From: an uncultured Eubacteriales bacterium
Lineage (GTDB): Bacteria > Bacillota > Clostridia > Oscillospirales > Acutalibacteraceae
Assembly (NCBI GenBank): GCA_900317085.1
Contig: ONFJ01000007.1
Span: 1 to 34,982 of the forward strand
Direction: 5' to 3'
DNA: 34,982 nt
The number at the start of each line of letters is the position of its first letter. Positions within the stretch are counted from its first letter, which is position 1. Of this stretch, positions 2 to 4,502 are shown one piece after another. The notes beneath the pieces are model-generated. The model was not told the origin of the DNA, made no database searches, and saw only the letters and a program-made list of their open reading frames with translations. The translations under genes and the position numbers were made by a program.

Positions 2-1072
2 AAACTCGACAAAAAGAAACTCGGCCGGACCGAACTGCCGGAGAAGATCGAAGGTTTCTGGTCGAAGGAACTCCCGAAGGAGTGGGAGCGGAAGGGGAGC
101 GGCTCTTACAAAAAGAAGACGGTCGCGAAACAGCCGGAAGAACCAGTGGCCCCGACGCCGACCCCGCTGACCGCGTCTGACAAGCCCGTCGCCGAAACGA
201 CGAAGACTCCGGAAGTGGAAGCGGCTGTCGAGGAACTGAAGCGCGAAGCGTTCGCCGAACCGGCGGCTCCGAAGGCTCCGGAAGCGCCGAAAGCTGCGGA
301 AACGCCAAAGGCAGAAGGTCCCGTGCCCTATGTCCGCAAGGCAGACCGCCCGGCGGAGGAGCCAAAACCGGAGCCCGTCAAAATAGTCGAACCGCAGGAG
401 GAACTCCCGGTGGTCGAAGACCTTCCGGTCGTGCCCTTCTCCGAAGAGACCGAACTGCCGGACTTCCGCATCATCGGCGAAGCGTTCAAGACGTACATCC
501 TCGTCGAACTCGAAGGTAAGATGCTGATGGTCGACAAACACGCGGCCCACGAACGGATCCTCTACGACCGGCTCATCGCCAACAAGGAACCGGTCCAGTC
601 CCAGATGCTGCTGATGCCCGTGACCGTCTCCCTTTCCAAGGAAGAGTATTCCGCGGTCCTAGAGCACACCGACCTCATGAAGGAAGCGGGCTTTGACGTC
701 TCAGACTTCGGTCCCGGCCTCGTCGCGGTCCGGGAAGTGCCGGTCATGCTCATCAAAGAGGACGTCACCCAGCTCATCTCCGAGATCGCCGGGCGTCTTC
801 TCGACAAGAGCGACCCGACCCCGGAGAAGCTCAACTGGATGTACAAGAACATCGCCTGCCGCGCCGCGGTCAAAGCCGGGGACGACACCCCGCCCGCCGA
901 GCAGGAGAAGTTCATCGAATATGTCCTGTCCCACCGCGATGTACGGTACTGTCCCCACGGACGCCCCATCCTCATCGAGATGACGAGACCGGAACTGGAG
1001 AAGACCTTCGGGCGCATCCAGCTGAAGACCGGCCCGAGCATCCGGCAGACCGTTCGCAGGAAGAAAAAATAA
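2..1072 (+). CDS. mutL: DNA mismatch repair protein MutL, C-terminal part (5' end outside window)
   Basis: The reading frame is open from the left edge, so the N-terminal GHKL ATPase domain lies outside the window. What remains is a Lys/Pro/Ala/Glu-rich linker (roughly the first 150 codons) followed by the MutL C-terminal dimerisation and endonuclease domain. That domain shows the metal-binding motif DKHAAHERILYD at 533-568, then ACRAAVKAGD, and CPHGRP near the end, all in the order expected for endonuclease-type MutL. MutL couples MutS mismatch recognition to strand incision. The last acidic position of the DQHA(X)2E(X)4E motif is Asp rather than Glu. The linker is long and low in complexity, as is usual in the family. 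No start codon is visible; the GTG at 146 lies inside the linker and is not a real start. Confidence 0.95.
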   Translation, partial: KLDKKKLGRTELPEKIEGFWSKELPKEWERKGSGSYKKKTVAKQPEEPVAPTPTPLTASDKPVAETTKTPEVEAAVEELKREAFAEPAAPKAPEAPKAAETPKAEGPVPYVRKADRPAEEPKPEPVKIVEPQEELPVVEDLPVVPFSEETELPDFRIIGEAFKTYILVELEGKMLMVDKHAAHERILYDRLIANKEPVQSQMLLMPVTVSLSKEEYSAVLEHTDLMKEAGFDVSDFGPGLVAVREVPVMLIKEDVTQLISEIAGRLLDKSDPTPEKLNWMYKNIACRAAVKAGDDTPPAEQEKFIEYVLSHRDVRYCPHGRPILIEMTRPELEKTFGRIQLKTGPSIRQTVRRKKK

Positions 1073-1101
1073 TTGACAAAGTTTTCCACAGGGACTATAA
1101 T
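1073..1101 (+). promoter_or_regulatory. Consensus sigma-A promoter for glnN
   Basis: TTGACA at 1073-1078 and TATAAT at 1096-1101 are separated by 17 bp, a perfect housekeeping consensus. The -35 box begins directly after the mutL stop codon. Transcription is expected to start near 1108, which leaves a leader of about 60 nt before glnN. Confidence 0.9.
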
Positions 1102-1113
1102 TCTCGCAGAAAC

Positions 1114-1129
1114 ACAGCAAAGGCGCTGT
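1114..1129 (+). promoter_or_regulatory. ANTAR-type hexaloop hairpin in the glnN leader
   Basis: ACAGC (1114-1118) and GCTGT (1125-1129) form a 5-bp stem closed by the six-base loop AAAGGC. Loop position 1 is A and position 4 is G, the hallmark of RNA hairpins bound by ANTAR-domain antiterminators. Its 3' arm is also used by the 5' arm of the following terminator, so the two folds exclude each other. Known ANTAR targets have two such hairpins in tandem; I see only one after the predicted start. An ANTAR protein is encoded directly downstream of glnN, which supports the reading. Confidence 0.72.
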
Positions 1130-1157
1130 ACCACCGCGGTACAGCGTCTCTTTTTTT
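1124..1157 (+). terminator. Intrinsic terminator (attenuator) in the glnN leader
   Basis: CGCTGTACC (1124-1132) pairs perfectly with GGTACAGCG (1138-1146) around a 5-nt loop. The stem is followed by TCTC and seven T residues (1151-1157). The hairpin lies between the glnN promoter and its ribosome site (AGGAGG, 1158-1163), so if it forms it should stop transcription before glnN. Overlap with the ANTAR-type hairpin suggests regulated readthrough. Confidence 0.85.
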
Positions 1158-1170
1158 AGGAGGAAACCAT

Positions 1171-3279
1171 ATGGGAATGAACAATGTTCCGGAGATCTTC
1201 GGCAGCCTCGTCTTCTCGGACGAAGTCATGCATGAACGGCTCCCCAACCAGACCTATCGTGCGCTGAAAGAGGCGACGGCCAACAACCAGCCCCTGGACC
1301 CGGACATCGCACAGCAGGTCGCCAGCGCCATGAAGACCTGGGCCGTGGAAAAAGGTGCCACGCACTACACCCACTGGTTCCAACCCATGACCGGTGTCAC
1401 CGCGGAGAAGCACGACAGCTTCATCACTCCGGTGGGCGACGGCAAGATCATCATGGATTTCTCCGGTAAAGAGCTCATCCGTTCGGAACCGGATGCCTCG
1501 TCGTTCCCGTCGGGCGGCATCCGTTCCACTTTCGAAGCGAGGGGCTACACCGCCTGGGACCCGACCTCTCCGGCCTTTATCAAGGATGACACCCTGTGCA
1601 TCCCGTCCATCTTCTGCTCCTACGGCGGACAGGTCCTCGACAAGAAGACCCCGCTGCTCCGCTCCATCCAGGCGATGGACAAGCAGGCCATGCGCATCGT
1701 CAACATCTTCGGCAACCCCACCGGCGCGAAGCACTGTCACTCCTCCGTTGGCGGTGAGCAGGAGTATTTCCTCATCGACCGCGACCTCTTCAACGAGCGG
1801 GAAGACCTCGTCACCACCGGCCGCACGCTCTTCGGCGCCAAGCCCCCGAAGGGTCAGGAGATGGAAGACCACTACTTTGGTACCATCAAACCGGCGGTCA
1901 AGGCGTTCATGGCAGACCTCGACGTCGAACTGTGGAAACTGGGCGTCTACGCCAAGACCGAACACAGCGAAGTCGCTCCGTCTCAGCACGAGATGGCGCC
2001 GATCTATACGGAGACCAACGTTGGTACCGACCAGAACCAGCTGACGATGGAGATCATGAAATCGGTCGCGAAGAAACACAACCTCGCGTGCCTCATCCAT
2101 GAGAAACCCTTTGCCGGCATCAACGGTTCCGGCAAGCACAACAACTGGTCCATCACGACCGACACCGGCATCAACCTGTTCAAACCCGGTAAGGACCCGT
2201 ACAACAACCTCCAGTTCCTCGTCATGCTGGCCGCCGTGGTCAAGGGCGTCGACGAGTACCAGGACCTGCTCAGAGCCTGTGTCGCGAGCCCCGGGAACGA
2301 CCACCGTCTCGGCGCCGATGAGGCACCGCCCGCCATCGTCTCCATCTACCTCGGCGACGACCTGCTGGCCCTGGAGACCGCCATCGAAGCCGGCGAGCAG
2401 ATGGAAGCCATCAAGGCTTCCGAGATGAAGTCCGGCGTCAAGTTCATCCCGAAATTCAAGAAGGACAATACGGACCGCAACCGTACATCGCCCTTTGCCT
2501 TCACCGGCAACAAGTTCGAATTCCGTATGGTGGGCTCCTCCGCGTCTCTGGCGGGCCCCAACACCATGCTGAACACCATCCTCGCCGAAGAGCTCGAAGG
2601 CTTTGCGGACATCCTGGAAGGCGTTCCGGAAGAGGAACTCGAAGAGCGTGTCCGTGCCCTTGTGCGCAAGACGTTCAAAGAGCATTCCCGCATCATCTTC
2701 AATGGCAACAACTACTCCGATGAGTGGGTCGTCGAAGCGGAGCGCAGAGGCCTCGAGAACCTGCGGACCTGCGCGGACGCGTTCCCGGCCTACATCCGTG
2801 AGAAGAACCTCGCCCTCGTCGAGAAGCACAAGATCTACACCCGCGAGGAACTTACCTCCCGGTACGAGATCTCGATGGACACCTACTGCAAGACCCTGCA
2901 CATCGAGGCCCTCACCATGGCAGACATGGTCAAGAAGAGCATCTACCCGAGCGTCCTTGCATACATGACGACCGTCGCCGACTCCATCCGGGTGAAGGAG
3001 GCCATCTCGACGAACGTGCCCCACGAGAGCGAGAGCGAACTGCTGACCTCTCTGGCAGCCCTGTCCGACAGCCTCATGAAGAAGTGCAAAGCGCTCGAGG
3101 CGGCTCTCTCCAGTGCGGAGAAGAGCGAGGACATCAAGGTCGAAGCCATCTACTACCGGGACAACGTTTTCCCGGCGATGCAGGAGATGCGCGCGGTGGC
3201 CGACGAACTCGAGACCATCACCGCCAAGGACTACTGGCCGTTCCCGACCTACACCGACCTCATCTACAGCGTCAACTGA
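1171..3279 (+). CDS. glnN: Type III glutamine synthetase
   Basis: This cytoplasmic enzyme makes glutamine from glutamate and ammonia with ATP, the entry point of nitrogen assimilation. At 702 residues it has the length of the large GSIII class rather than the 440-470 residues of GSI. It starts with the GSIII-like segment FGSLVFSDEVMHERLP and carries the central catalytic domain with PSQHEMAPIY, NGSGKHNNWS and FAFTGNKFEFRMVGSS motifs. The ATG at 1171 follows AGGAGG (1158-1163) by 7 nt. Expression probably passes through the leader attenuator at 1114-1157, and a terminator lies just after the stop. The next gene encodes an ANTAR regulator, a pairing also known from other clostridial glutamine synthetases. 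Class assignment is firm; the regulation is inferred from the leader. Confidence 0.97.
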   Translation: MGMNNVPEIFGSLVFSDEVMHERLPNQTYRALKEATANNQPLDPDIAQQVASAMKTWAVEKGATHYTHWFQPMTGVTAEKHDSFITPVGDGKIIMDFSGKELIRSEPDASSFPSGGIRSTFEARGYTAWDPTSPAFIKDDTLCIPSIFCSYGGQVLDKKTPLLRSIQAMDKQAMRIVNIFGNPTGAKHCHSSVGGEQEYFLIDRDLFNEREDLVTTGRTLFGAKPPKGQEMEDHYFGTIKPAVKAFMADLDVELWKLGVYAKTEHSEVAPSQHEMAPIYTETNVGTDQNQLTMEIMKSVAKKHNLACLIHEKPFAGINGSGKHNNWSITTDTGINLFKPGKDPYNNLQFLVMLAAVVKGVDEYQDLLRACVASPGNDHRLGADEAPPAIVSIYLGDDLLALETAIEAGEQMEAIKASEMKSGVKFIPKFKKDNTDRNRTSPFAFTGNKFEFRMVGSSASLAGPNTMLNTILAEELEGFADILEGVPEEELEERVRALVRKTFKEHSRIIFNGNNYSDEWVVEAERRGLENLRTCADAFPAYIREKNLALVEKHKIYTREELTSRYEISMDTYCKTLHIEALTMADMVKKSIYPSVLAYMTTVADSIRVKEAISTNVPHESESELLTSLAALSDSLMKKCKALEAALSSAEKSEDIKVEAIYYRDNVFPAMQEMRAVADELETITAKDYWPFPTYTDLIYSVN

Positions 3280-3297
3280 ACAAAACACGATGAATAC

Positions 3298-3327
3298 AGC
3301 CGGCCCGCAAAGGGTCGGTTGTTTTTT
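3298..3327 (+). terminator. Intrinsic terminator after glnN
   Basis: AGCCGGCCC (3298-3306) pairs with GGGTCGGTT (3312-3320), with two G-U pairs and loop GCAAA. It is followed by G and six T residues (3322-3327). It separates glnN from the ANTAR gene, which must be reached by readthrough or by its own promoter; a weak TATATT box at 3337-3342 is the only candidate I see. Confidence 0.8.
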
Positions 3328-3386
3328 GGCCGCTTCTATATTAGAATGGATAGACGACCATTACGGAAGGAAGGGGGGAGAGCGCT

Positions 3387-3971
3387 ATGAAACTGCTGCT
3401 CATCTGCGACCGGGCAGACATTTCGGAAAAATTGACATCTGTACTGGCAGCCTGGGCCGAGACGCAGCCGGAAAAGACGGCCCGGGTCTACACCGCCTCC
3501 TCGAGCGTCGAAGGCCGGACCCTCGCACAGGAACACGACTGCGACGTCATCCTTCTCTATTTTCCCCTCGAAGGGGCTCTGGGCGATGAACCGGCCGTAC
3601 AGCTCTCACGCCTCACGGGAGCTTCCGTCATCGTCATCACGCCGGAGAAAGTCGCCGAACAGATGCGGGAGAAACTGGCGGGGAAGGGCGTCCTCCTGGC
3701 GACGACTCCGCTGCGCAAGCACGAGTTCTTCAGCACCCTGACCGCCGGCGTCGTCCTCAGCAAACGGACCCGGGGGCTGCAGGAGGAGAACGAACGGCTC
3801 CGGGCGAAGCTTTCCGAGCAGAAGACTGTCGAGCACGCGAAGCTCCTTCTGGTCGAGTGTCTCAAACTCAGTGAGGAACAGGCCCACAAGTACATCGAGC
3901 GGGAAGCGATGGAGCTCCGGGAGAGCCGGGTGGAAGTCGCCAGGCGCATCATCAGCACCTATCAGAGCTGA
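3387..3971 (+). CDS. ANTAR-domain RNA-binding antiterminator with degenerate receiver (NitR-like)
   Basis: A 194-residue protein. Residues 1-120 have the fold pattern of a response-regulator receiver (MKLLLICDRADI, DCDVILLYFPL, VIVITP). A short charged coiled coil follows (about 124-147). The C-terminal helices (about 148-192; AKLLLVECLKLSEEQAHKYI then AMELRE and VARRII) match the ANTAR domain, which binds hexaloop RNA hairpins and prevents terminator formation. At the usual phospho-acceptor position I read Tyr58 instead of Asp, and the conserved Lys-Pro near the end is Thr107-Pro108, so phosphorylation control looks lost. The ATG at 3387 follows an AGGAAGGGGGGAG ribosome site. The likely target is the glnN leader just upstream. 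Related clostridial proteins downstream of glnA are called NitR. The ANTAR call is strong; the ligand or partner that controls the protein is unknown. Confidence 0.88.
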   Translation: MKLLLICDRADISEKLTSVLAAWAETQPEKTARVYTASSSVEGRTLAQEHDCDVILLYFPLEGALGDEPAVQLSRLTGASVIVITPEKVAEQMREKLAGKGVLLATTPLRKHEFFSTLTAGVVLSKRTRGLQEENERLRAKLSEQKTVEHAKLLLVECLKLSEEQAHKYIEREAMELRESRVEVARRIISTYQS

Positions 3972-4018
3972 ACGCCCGGAAGTGTCTTAAAAAACTGACA
4001 TAGAAATGCCCCGTTGCC

Positions 4019-4047
4019 TTGAATCCTTTGTGCAACTTGGGTATAAT
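4019..4047 (+). promoter_or_regulatory. Promoter for the small P-loop gene
   Basis: TTGAAT (about 4019-4024) and TATAAT (4042-4047) are spaced by 17 bp. The start is predicted near 4054, leaving a leader of about 30 nt before the ATG at 4086. Confidence 0.7.
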
Positions 4048-4085
4048 AGAACCAAGAAAATAATAGTAAGTGGAGGATAATCATT

Positions 4086-4502
4086 ATGATATCTCTGATC
4101 ATTGGCAATAAAGGTTCCGGAAAGACCAAGCACCTCATCGACGAAGTCAACAAGGCCCTTGCTTCTTCCAACGGACACGTCGTCTGTGTGGAAAAGATGA
4201 TGAAACTGACCTATGAGATCAAACCGCAGGTCCGTCTCATCAACGCCGACGAGTTCCTCGTCAGCGGCTACGACATGTACTATGGCTTCCTCGCCGGTCT
4301 CTGCTCCAGAGATGCCGACATCACGGACATCCTTTGCGACGGTACTCTTCGCATCGGCGGCCGCGATCCGGAAGACCTTGCCAACTTCCTCGAAAAGGTC
4401 GACAAGCTGTCCAAGATCACCGGTGTCAAATTCACCTTCACCATCTCCGAAGACGAGTCCGAAGTTCCGGAACGCGTGTTCGAGTTCTGTGAAAAAATCT
4501 GA
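4086..4502 (+). CDS. Small P-loop ATP-binding protein, function unknown
   Basis: A 138-residue cytoplasmic protein that opens with a Walker A motif, GNKGSGKT (residues 7-14), on a first beta strand. A strand resembling Walker B or an adenylate-kinase-like core is less clear. Short proteins beginning ISLIIGNKGSGKTK are common in Clostridia and are often loosely labelled as ATPases or PilT-like; I know of no established role. The ATG at 4086 follows GGAGG (4072-4076). It has its own promoter and a strong terminator, so it is a single-gene unit. No membrane segment or signal peptide is visible. Confidence 0.85.
   Translation: MISLIIGNKGSGKTKHLIDEVNKALASSNGHVVCVEKMMKLTYEIKPQVRLINADEFLVSGYDMYYGFLAGLCSRDADITDILCDGTLRIGGRDPEDLANFLEKVDKLSKITGVKFTFTISEDESEVPERVFEFCEKI

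Follow-up and report, generated by a model that had tools for sequence, protein, structure and literature searches.

A putative single-hexaloop ANTAR attenuator upstream of glnN and its recurrence at nitrogen genes of Clostridia

Results

The glnN leader

The stretch of DNA analysed here (34,982 nucleotides, hereafter the window) is contig C60 of a 1.94 Mb draft genome (G000, referred to below as the own genome), and it presents, in order, mutL, a promoter, a leader, glnN, a terminator and an ANTAR gene (Table 1). The glnN product carries the Pfam domains GSIII_N (5.7e-80), Gln-synt_C-ter and Gln-synt_C. An earlier note on this DNA had placed a hexaloop hairpin, with A at the first and G at the fourth loop position, behind a consensus promoter. 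Both were confirmed: the promoter agrees with the consensus at 12 of 12 positions, and the hairpin lies precisely where it had been placed, with a 5-bp stem and the loop AAAGGC, in which A1, A2 and G4 are nucleotides 1119, 1120 and 1122. From the promoter consensus the transcript would be expected to start at approximately 1107-1109. The terminator described in the same note is likewise present and shares the 3' arm of the hairpin, but the extent given for it (1124-1146) was too short; nucleotides 1121-1129, which include that arm, are common to both structures, and the terminator pairs the loop G4.

Table 1. Features of the glnN leader and its surroundings, with the second ANTAR locus of the own genome. 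Positions are those of the window unless a contig is named.
Feature	Position	Strand	Remarks
Promoter TTGACA-17-TATAAT	1073..1101	+	consensus 12/12; directly after the mutL stop codon; TTGACA 1073-1078, TATAAT 1096-1101, 17-nt spacer
Candidate antiterminator hairpin ACAGC-AAAGGC-GCUGU	1114..1129	+	5 bp; fold, stem covariation, loop conservation
Intrinsic terminator stem-loop	1121..1149	+	12 pairs; fold predictions
Terminator U tract (T7)	1151..1157	+	
glnN ribosome binding site AGGAGG	1158..1163	+	by eye
glnN, glutamine synthetase type III, 702 aa	1171..3279	+	Pfam; start ATG 1171
Terminator-like stem-loop between glnN and ANTAR gene	3296..3322	+	loop GCAAA, no hexaloop
ANTAR protein, 194 aa, lineage-specific candidate regulator	3387..3971	+	Pfam ANTAR PF03861, 7.9e-14
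Second own ANTAR gene, behind 398-aa type I glnA and divergent from amtB-PII	G000:C84 (L063), 481-4466		

The proposal that the leader has two mutually exclusive folds also held. RNA ending just after the hairpin (1107-1135) is predicted to adopt the hexaloop hairpin at -6.2 kcal/mol, a stability that 8 of 200 shuffled sequences equal, and the hairpin by itself is therefore unremarkable; RNA reaching the U tract (1107-1155) is predicted to adopt the terminator at -21.1 kcal/mol (z -5.15), which none of 200 shuffles equals. A search of the window against Rfam returned no match at the gathering thresholds, and around the leader only four sub-threshold matches (E 1.6-4.6). Further downstream, at 4086-4502 of the window, is a gene for a 138-aa P-loop-like protein (GNKGSGKT, by eye) that has no Pfam match and is kept 3' of glnN in the related genomes G003, G004 and G007.

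Conservation of the hexaloop across glnN leaders

Two sets of glnN leaders were examined. The first comprised 63 glnN starts from 50 of 60 genomes, the own genome counted, and in 32 of these a hairpin with an A1/G4 hexaloop lies over a terminator; the next most frequent loop class was found in 8, and dinucleotide shuffles of the same leaders led us to expect 1.0. At least two of the 32 (G054:C29 and G017) resemble chance matches, and the same scan found the hairpin missing from 18 of the 47 glnN leaders of ANTAR-bearing genomes. The second set, of 79 named glnN loci (one of 80 was dropped as too short), had the A1/G4 hexaloop over a terminator in 43 leaders and any other class in at most 4, the carriers including records titled Oscillospiraceae, Lachnospiraceae, Blautia and Claveliimonas, and among them the culturable Blautia schinkii DSM 10518 (L279). 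The hexaloop over the terminator is far above chance.

When all 143 glnN leaders were pooled (with an overlap of at least one locus between the sets, L217, which is G007:C166), the hairpin was present in 76, of which 66 have a promoter scoring at least 9 of 12; the remaining 10, without a promoter, were left out of the loop and distance counts. Promoter scores reach 11-12 of 12 in 60 of the 66 promoter-bearing leaders, the loop consensus of which is AANGGC, with G at position 5 in 60 of 66 and A at position 2, on which no selection had been made, in every one (66/66). The stems covary with a score of 0.580 against 0.305 for shuffled alignments (41 hairpins), a value reached in none of 500 shuffles; as the hairpins that seeded our covariance model, R1, were picked for pairing and for A1/G4, their paired fraction and the constancy of those two bases are partly circular. 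Of the 76 hairpin leaders, the 74 with a loop beginning AA were also folded, and the predicted fold rules out the hexaloop hairpin in 72 of them and pairs the loop G4 in 69. The loop A and G and their overlap with the terminator persist in close and distant relatives; the loss of these features from close relatives, which the earlier note had named as evidence against its reading, was not observed.

Recurrence at other nitrogen genes

The R1 model was trained on glnN hairpins only, the leader of the window among them, and within the window it gives one strong match (26.1 bits at 1109-1134, the next best being 13.1). Its use alone as a genome-wide finder was dropped, as it matches in all 60 genomes at E values up to 0.3. 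Forty R1 sites were inspected, and by script 20 of these lack a terminator, although two of the latter may be real: L170, which is a gdhA leader, and L159, which is cut by the end of its contig. Three sites that do have a terminator (L161, L183 and L186) resemble chance matches within coding sequence, and a nadE-like site (L148, G000:C71), which has a terminator but no upstream promoter, was set aside.

In the own genome, the module is present upstream of gdhA and glmS, and in relatives it is present upstream of asnA, glnA and purC. Five of these loci were named with NCBIfam (L147, L149, L158, L162 and L169); the remaining gdhA, glmS and asnA leaders were named by eye. The leader of the own amtB-PII gene (G000:C84), whose product joins an ammonium transporter to a PII domain, has a tandem pair of A/G hexaloops; the first, on a stem of just 3 pairs, gives no R1 match, and the second matches R1 at 20.1 bits. 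As a separate matter, the own glmS gene with its hexaloop leader (L147, G000:C18, 1205-1400) has a reading frame whose start is disrupted in the draft, unlike the glmS genes of the relatives L151, L153, L155 and L156, which read through.

Candidate ANTAR regulators

The genome encodes two ANTAR proteins. The one that the earlier note had recognized just after glnN has a C-terminal ANTAR domain that scores above the Pfam cut-off, and its receiver-like domain is not matched by Pfam. Its relatives in the PDB are AmiR, EutV and Rv1626, of which AmiR (1qo0) is the best match, and it has a Tyr at the position of the phosphorylated Asp. Among 31 aligned ANTAR proteins, the own two included, this position is occupied by Asn in 24, Tyr in 3, Ser in 1 and Asp in 3 (L010, L021 and L023), such that the Asp is lost in 28 of 31. 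All 31 have His at the position of EutV Tyr164, as does AmiR, and all 31 keep Met172 (EutV numbering). In the EutV structural study, Tyr164 stacks on G4, which is the base read by EutV (PMC8934654).

One assignment would make the ANTAR gene directly 3' of glnN the sole regulator of the leader; the earlier note had inferred that "this regulator controls glnN". We regard such an assignment as doubtful. In its favor, the gene is adjacent to glnN in G000 and G003 and is a divergent neighbor in G006. Against it, the leader is kept in genomes that lack the gene at this position: in G004 and G007 no ANTAR gene intervenes between glnN and the gene after it, and G002 keeps the leader with no local ANTAR match. 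A tblastn search of the stretches from G002, G004, G007 and G013 for an ANTAR remnant found none, and in G001 the contig stops inside glnN, which puts the neighborhood out of view. Furthermore, another ANTAR gene, unlike that of the window, is present in G001, G002, G003, G004, G006 and the own genome, where the two ANTAR proteins are 27% identical and the second is the glnA-linked paralogue. The sole ANTAR proteins of G001 and G004 closely resemble this glnA-linked protein, and that of G002 also sits behind a glutamine synthetase gene. By hand count, a glutamine synthetase gene lies within approximately 1 kb upstream on the same strand in at least 18 of 37 ANTAR-bearing relatives, a lower bound given that the glutamine synthetase query was glnN. 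Because the leader is kept without the adjacent gene, and because ANTAR genes pair with glutamine synthetase genes, the glnA-linked ANTAR protein appears to be at least as good a candidate for the regulator of the glnN leader as the product of the neighboring gene.

Co-occurrence with ANTAR genes

A loose promoter-hexaloop pattern, which includes chance matches, was run over 295 genomes of the order and gave 485 matches, versus 44 for the reversed pattern used as a control. At least one match was found in 157 of the 168 genomes with an ANTAR gene and in 62 of the 127 without. When the ANTAR label was shuffled within families (227 genomes at least 90% complete), the observed difference was reached in none of 5000 trials, although one family, f10, is reversed, its two ANTAR-negative genomes averaging 2.50 matches and its eight positives 1.88.

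These data also bear on whether a factor besides ANTAR proteins might read the hexaloop, which we think unlikely. That reading draws on the excess of the pattern over its control in genomes with no ANTAR match (a mean of 0.85 loose matches versus 0.13), and on G007 (95% complete) and G013 (96% complete), which keep the leader while no ANTAR gene was detected in either. We rechecked 16 ANTAR-negative genomes, namely 13 with at least three loose matches together with G005, G007 and G013. In two of the 16, both scored as negative by the domain search, the glnA-linked ANTAR protein has a cut or shortened relative: in G319 (L326, G319:C19) the regulator is truncated, and in G122 (L327, G122:C21) it lies at a contig end. 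A part of the excess in ANTAR-negative genomes is therefore due to missed genes. The strict form of the pattern matched in 5 of the 16. Besides these two exceptions with truncated ANTAR-type regulators, the tracking of ANTAR genes by pattern matches within families weighs against a reader of another kind, as does the structure itself, for ANTAR targets are known by their A1/G4 hexaloop lying over a terminator (PMC3369931, PMC8934654).

A single hairpin

The published ANTAR targets have two hexaloop hairpins, P1 and P2 (PMC3369931). EutV requires both (PMC3369931; PMC8934654): deletion of P1 or alteration of the linker impaired EutV-dependent induction in vivo (PMC3369931), and lengthening the linker by 20 nt abolished antitermination by EutV in vitro (PMC8934654). 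The glnN leader lacks a tandem pair of hexaloop hairpins with a short linker between them; it has a single hairpin. A search of positions 1040-1113 of the window for an A/G hexaloop on a stem of at least 3 bp found none, nor did the same search upstream at the sister locus L217 (G007). This P1 scan had no informative positive control, as the stretches scanned around eutP in this order did not take in the leaders of those operons.

It is conceivable that the leader is nonetheless a canonical dual-hexaloop target, with a transcript that starts further upstream and a P1 concealed in what appears to be the promoter. The requirement of EutV for both hairpins would favor such an arrangement (PMC3369931, PMC8934654), and among the 43 hexaloop leaders of the second set, seven (L220, L229, L252, L256, L262, L286 and L292) have an A/G hexaloop of at least 3 bp upstream. 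Each of the seven, however, has a 3-bp stem, or overlaps or precedes the -10 box, or, for L292, lies within a first attenuator. Moreover, in 63 of the 66 promoter-bearing leaders a promoter of 9-12/12 has its -10 box only 7-16 nt ahead of the stem (39-48 nt in the remaining three), and at this spacing there is no room for P1: a transcript that starts approximately 7 nt past the -10 box would have at most about 9 nt ahead of the stem, and the smallest P1 needs 12. Where room does exist, in glmS leaders with 33-38 nt free after the -10 box, none of five has an A/G hexaloop there; the glmS promoter is weaker (9/12) and farther from the stem. With no hexaloop upstream in the window or at L217 either, we judge a concealed P1 to be quite improbable.

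Tandem A/G hexaloops do exist in nine glnN leaders of eight genomes (G014, G021, G024, G039, G050, G051, G054 and G055), where they are 65-119 nt apart, and by script both hexaloops have a terminator in four of the nine. As the glnN leader of the window has one hairpin and not two, we have not filed it in the dual-hexaloop family, although it would be expected to work like a member. The best reading of the sequence is that it represents a single-hexaloop variant of ANTAR attenuation. The ANTAR-controlled attenuator of the earlier note is thus upheld as to type, by conservation and co-occurrence, but the second hairpin of the published target is absent.

Discussion

Conservation of the loop, covariation of the stem, recurrence at nitrogen genes and co-occurrence with ANTAR genes together provide good support for an ANTAR-controlled attenuator. 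That the terminator is instead a plain, unregulated structure acting as a fixed brake on glnN is highly improbable, for although it is by far the stabler fold and the hairpin alone does not stand out from shuffled sequences, a fixed brake would give no reason for the invariant loop bases of the weaker hairpin or the covariation in its stem, nor for its appearance at other nitrogen genes.

We consider it likely that an ANTAR attenuator close to the promoter, operating through a single hexaloop hairpin, governs glnN. RNA initiated at the consensus promoter would fold this hairpin near its 5' end, and the hairpin is mutually exclusive with a strong terminator just 5' of the glnN ribosome binding site. 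Under nitrogen shortage, the emerging A1/G4 loop would be bound by an ANTAR protein, whether the product of the gene linked to glnA, of that linked to glnN, or both; the bound protein would hold the hairpin until polymerase has cleared the U tract, and glnN would be made. With nitrogen in ample supply, the protein would be inactive, the terminator would form and bury G4, and transcription would end after approximately 50 nt. The recruitment hairpin P1 would play no part in this process, and the same module would control an ammonium-assimilation regulon. The binding, the direction of control, the nitrogen signal and the sensor are inferred. Because the phosphorylated Asp is missing from the receiver-like domain of the regulator, a protein partner or a ligand is the probable signal, and as ANTAR genes repeatedly pair with glutamine synthetase genes, glutamine synthetase itself is a candidate for the sensor, which may be regarded as a weakly supported suggestion.

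NasT likewise has a pseudo-receiver. The ANTAR protein of the window resembles AmiR and NasT in being response-regulator-like and without a phosphorylation site, and the resemblance to AmiR extends to the best PDB match (1qo0) and to the His that both have at the G4-stacking position. AmiR and NasT are ANTAR proteins released by a partner, AmiC (PMC8934654) and NasS (PMC3795266), respectively, whereas the neighbors seen beside the ANTAR genes here are glutamine synthetases. With the EutV target RNAs (PMC3369931, PMC8934654), the glnN leader shares the A1/G4 hexaloop, the short stem, the 3' arm within an intrinsic terminator and the association with nitrogen-related genes. It differs in having a single hairpin, where EutV targets have two joined by a linker of 5-12 nt, and in that this hairpin begins within a few nucleotides of the probable transcript start; the proteins differ from EutV in that most lack the receiver Asp and in having His for Tyr164. 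A further likeness is to NitR of Clostridium saccharobutylicum (Stutz et al. 2007), which is described (PMC6316151) as an ANTAR protein tied to glutamine synthetase that brings about antitermination of GS/GOGAT genes under nitrogen limitation. The leader of the NitR system may already have a single hairpin.

According to two studies of EutV, antitermination requires two hexaloops in close tandem (PMC3369931, PMC8934654). The structural study notes that one loop is bound at a time, calls for work on single-hexaloop targets, and expects such targets where the time limit imposed by polymerase is missing (PMC8934654). The leaders described here are natural, recurrent single-hexaloop sites in attenuators, where that limit applies, and as short, ready-made leaders they make the role of P1 directly testable. 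They also provide a concrete candidate for the control of ammonia assimilation in many Clostridia, including those of the rumen and gut. No description of single-hexaloop attenuators was found in the open-licence full-text literature; the work of Stutz et al. (2007) may already contain one.

A broader proposition, which we offer tentatively and with something less than even confidence, is that single-hexaloop attenuators at the transcript start (in tandem in some leaders) constitute a separate class of ANTAR control in Clostridia, one that would run an ammonium-assimilation regulon by way of ANTAR proteins with mostly pseudo-receivers, with glutamine synthetase as a possible sensor. If this is true, the P1 recruitment hairpin is dispensable for ANTAR antitermination. 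The members would be glnN, glnA, gdhA, amtB, asnA, glmS and purC, and possibly also asnB, purF and GOGAT. The strict promoter-hexaloop pattern, run regardless of genes and with its reverse as a control, matched in 10 of 299 genomes of a phylum-wide sample, the own genome included, and the control in none. Its 13 places beyond the own genome were, by eye, before 7 glnN genes, 3 GOGAT-like genes, 1 asnB-like gene, 1 purF-like gene and 1 gene for a membrane protein. Two further observations were made with promoter-hexaloop patterns. The own genome has a third match at G000:C102:1058-1107 on the minus strand, and at L305 and L307 (G378:C32 and G569:C24) there are divergent promoter-hexaloop pairs, one side of which lies before a GOGAT-like amidotransferase gene.
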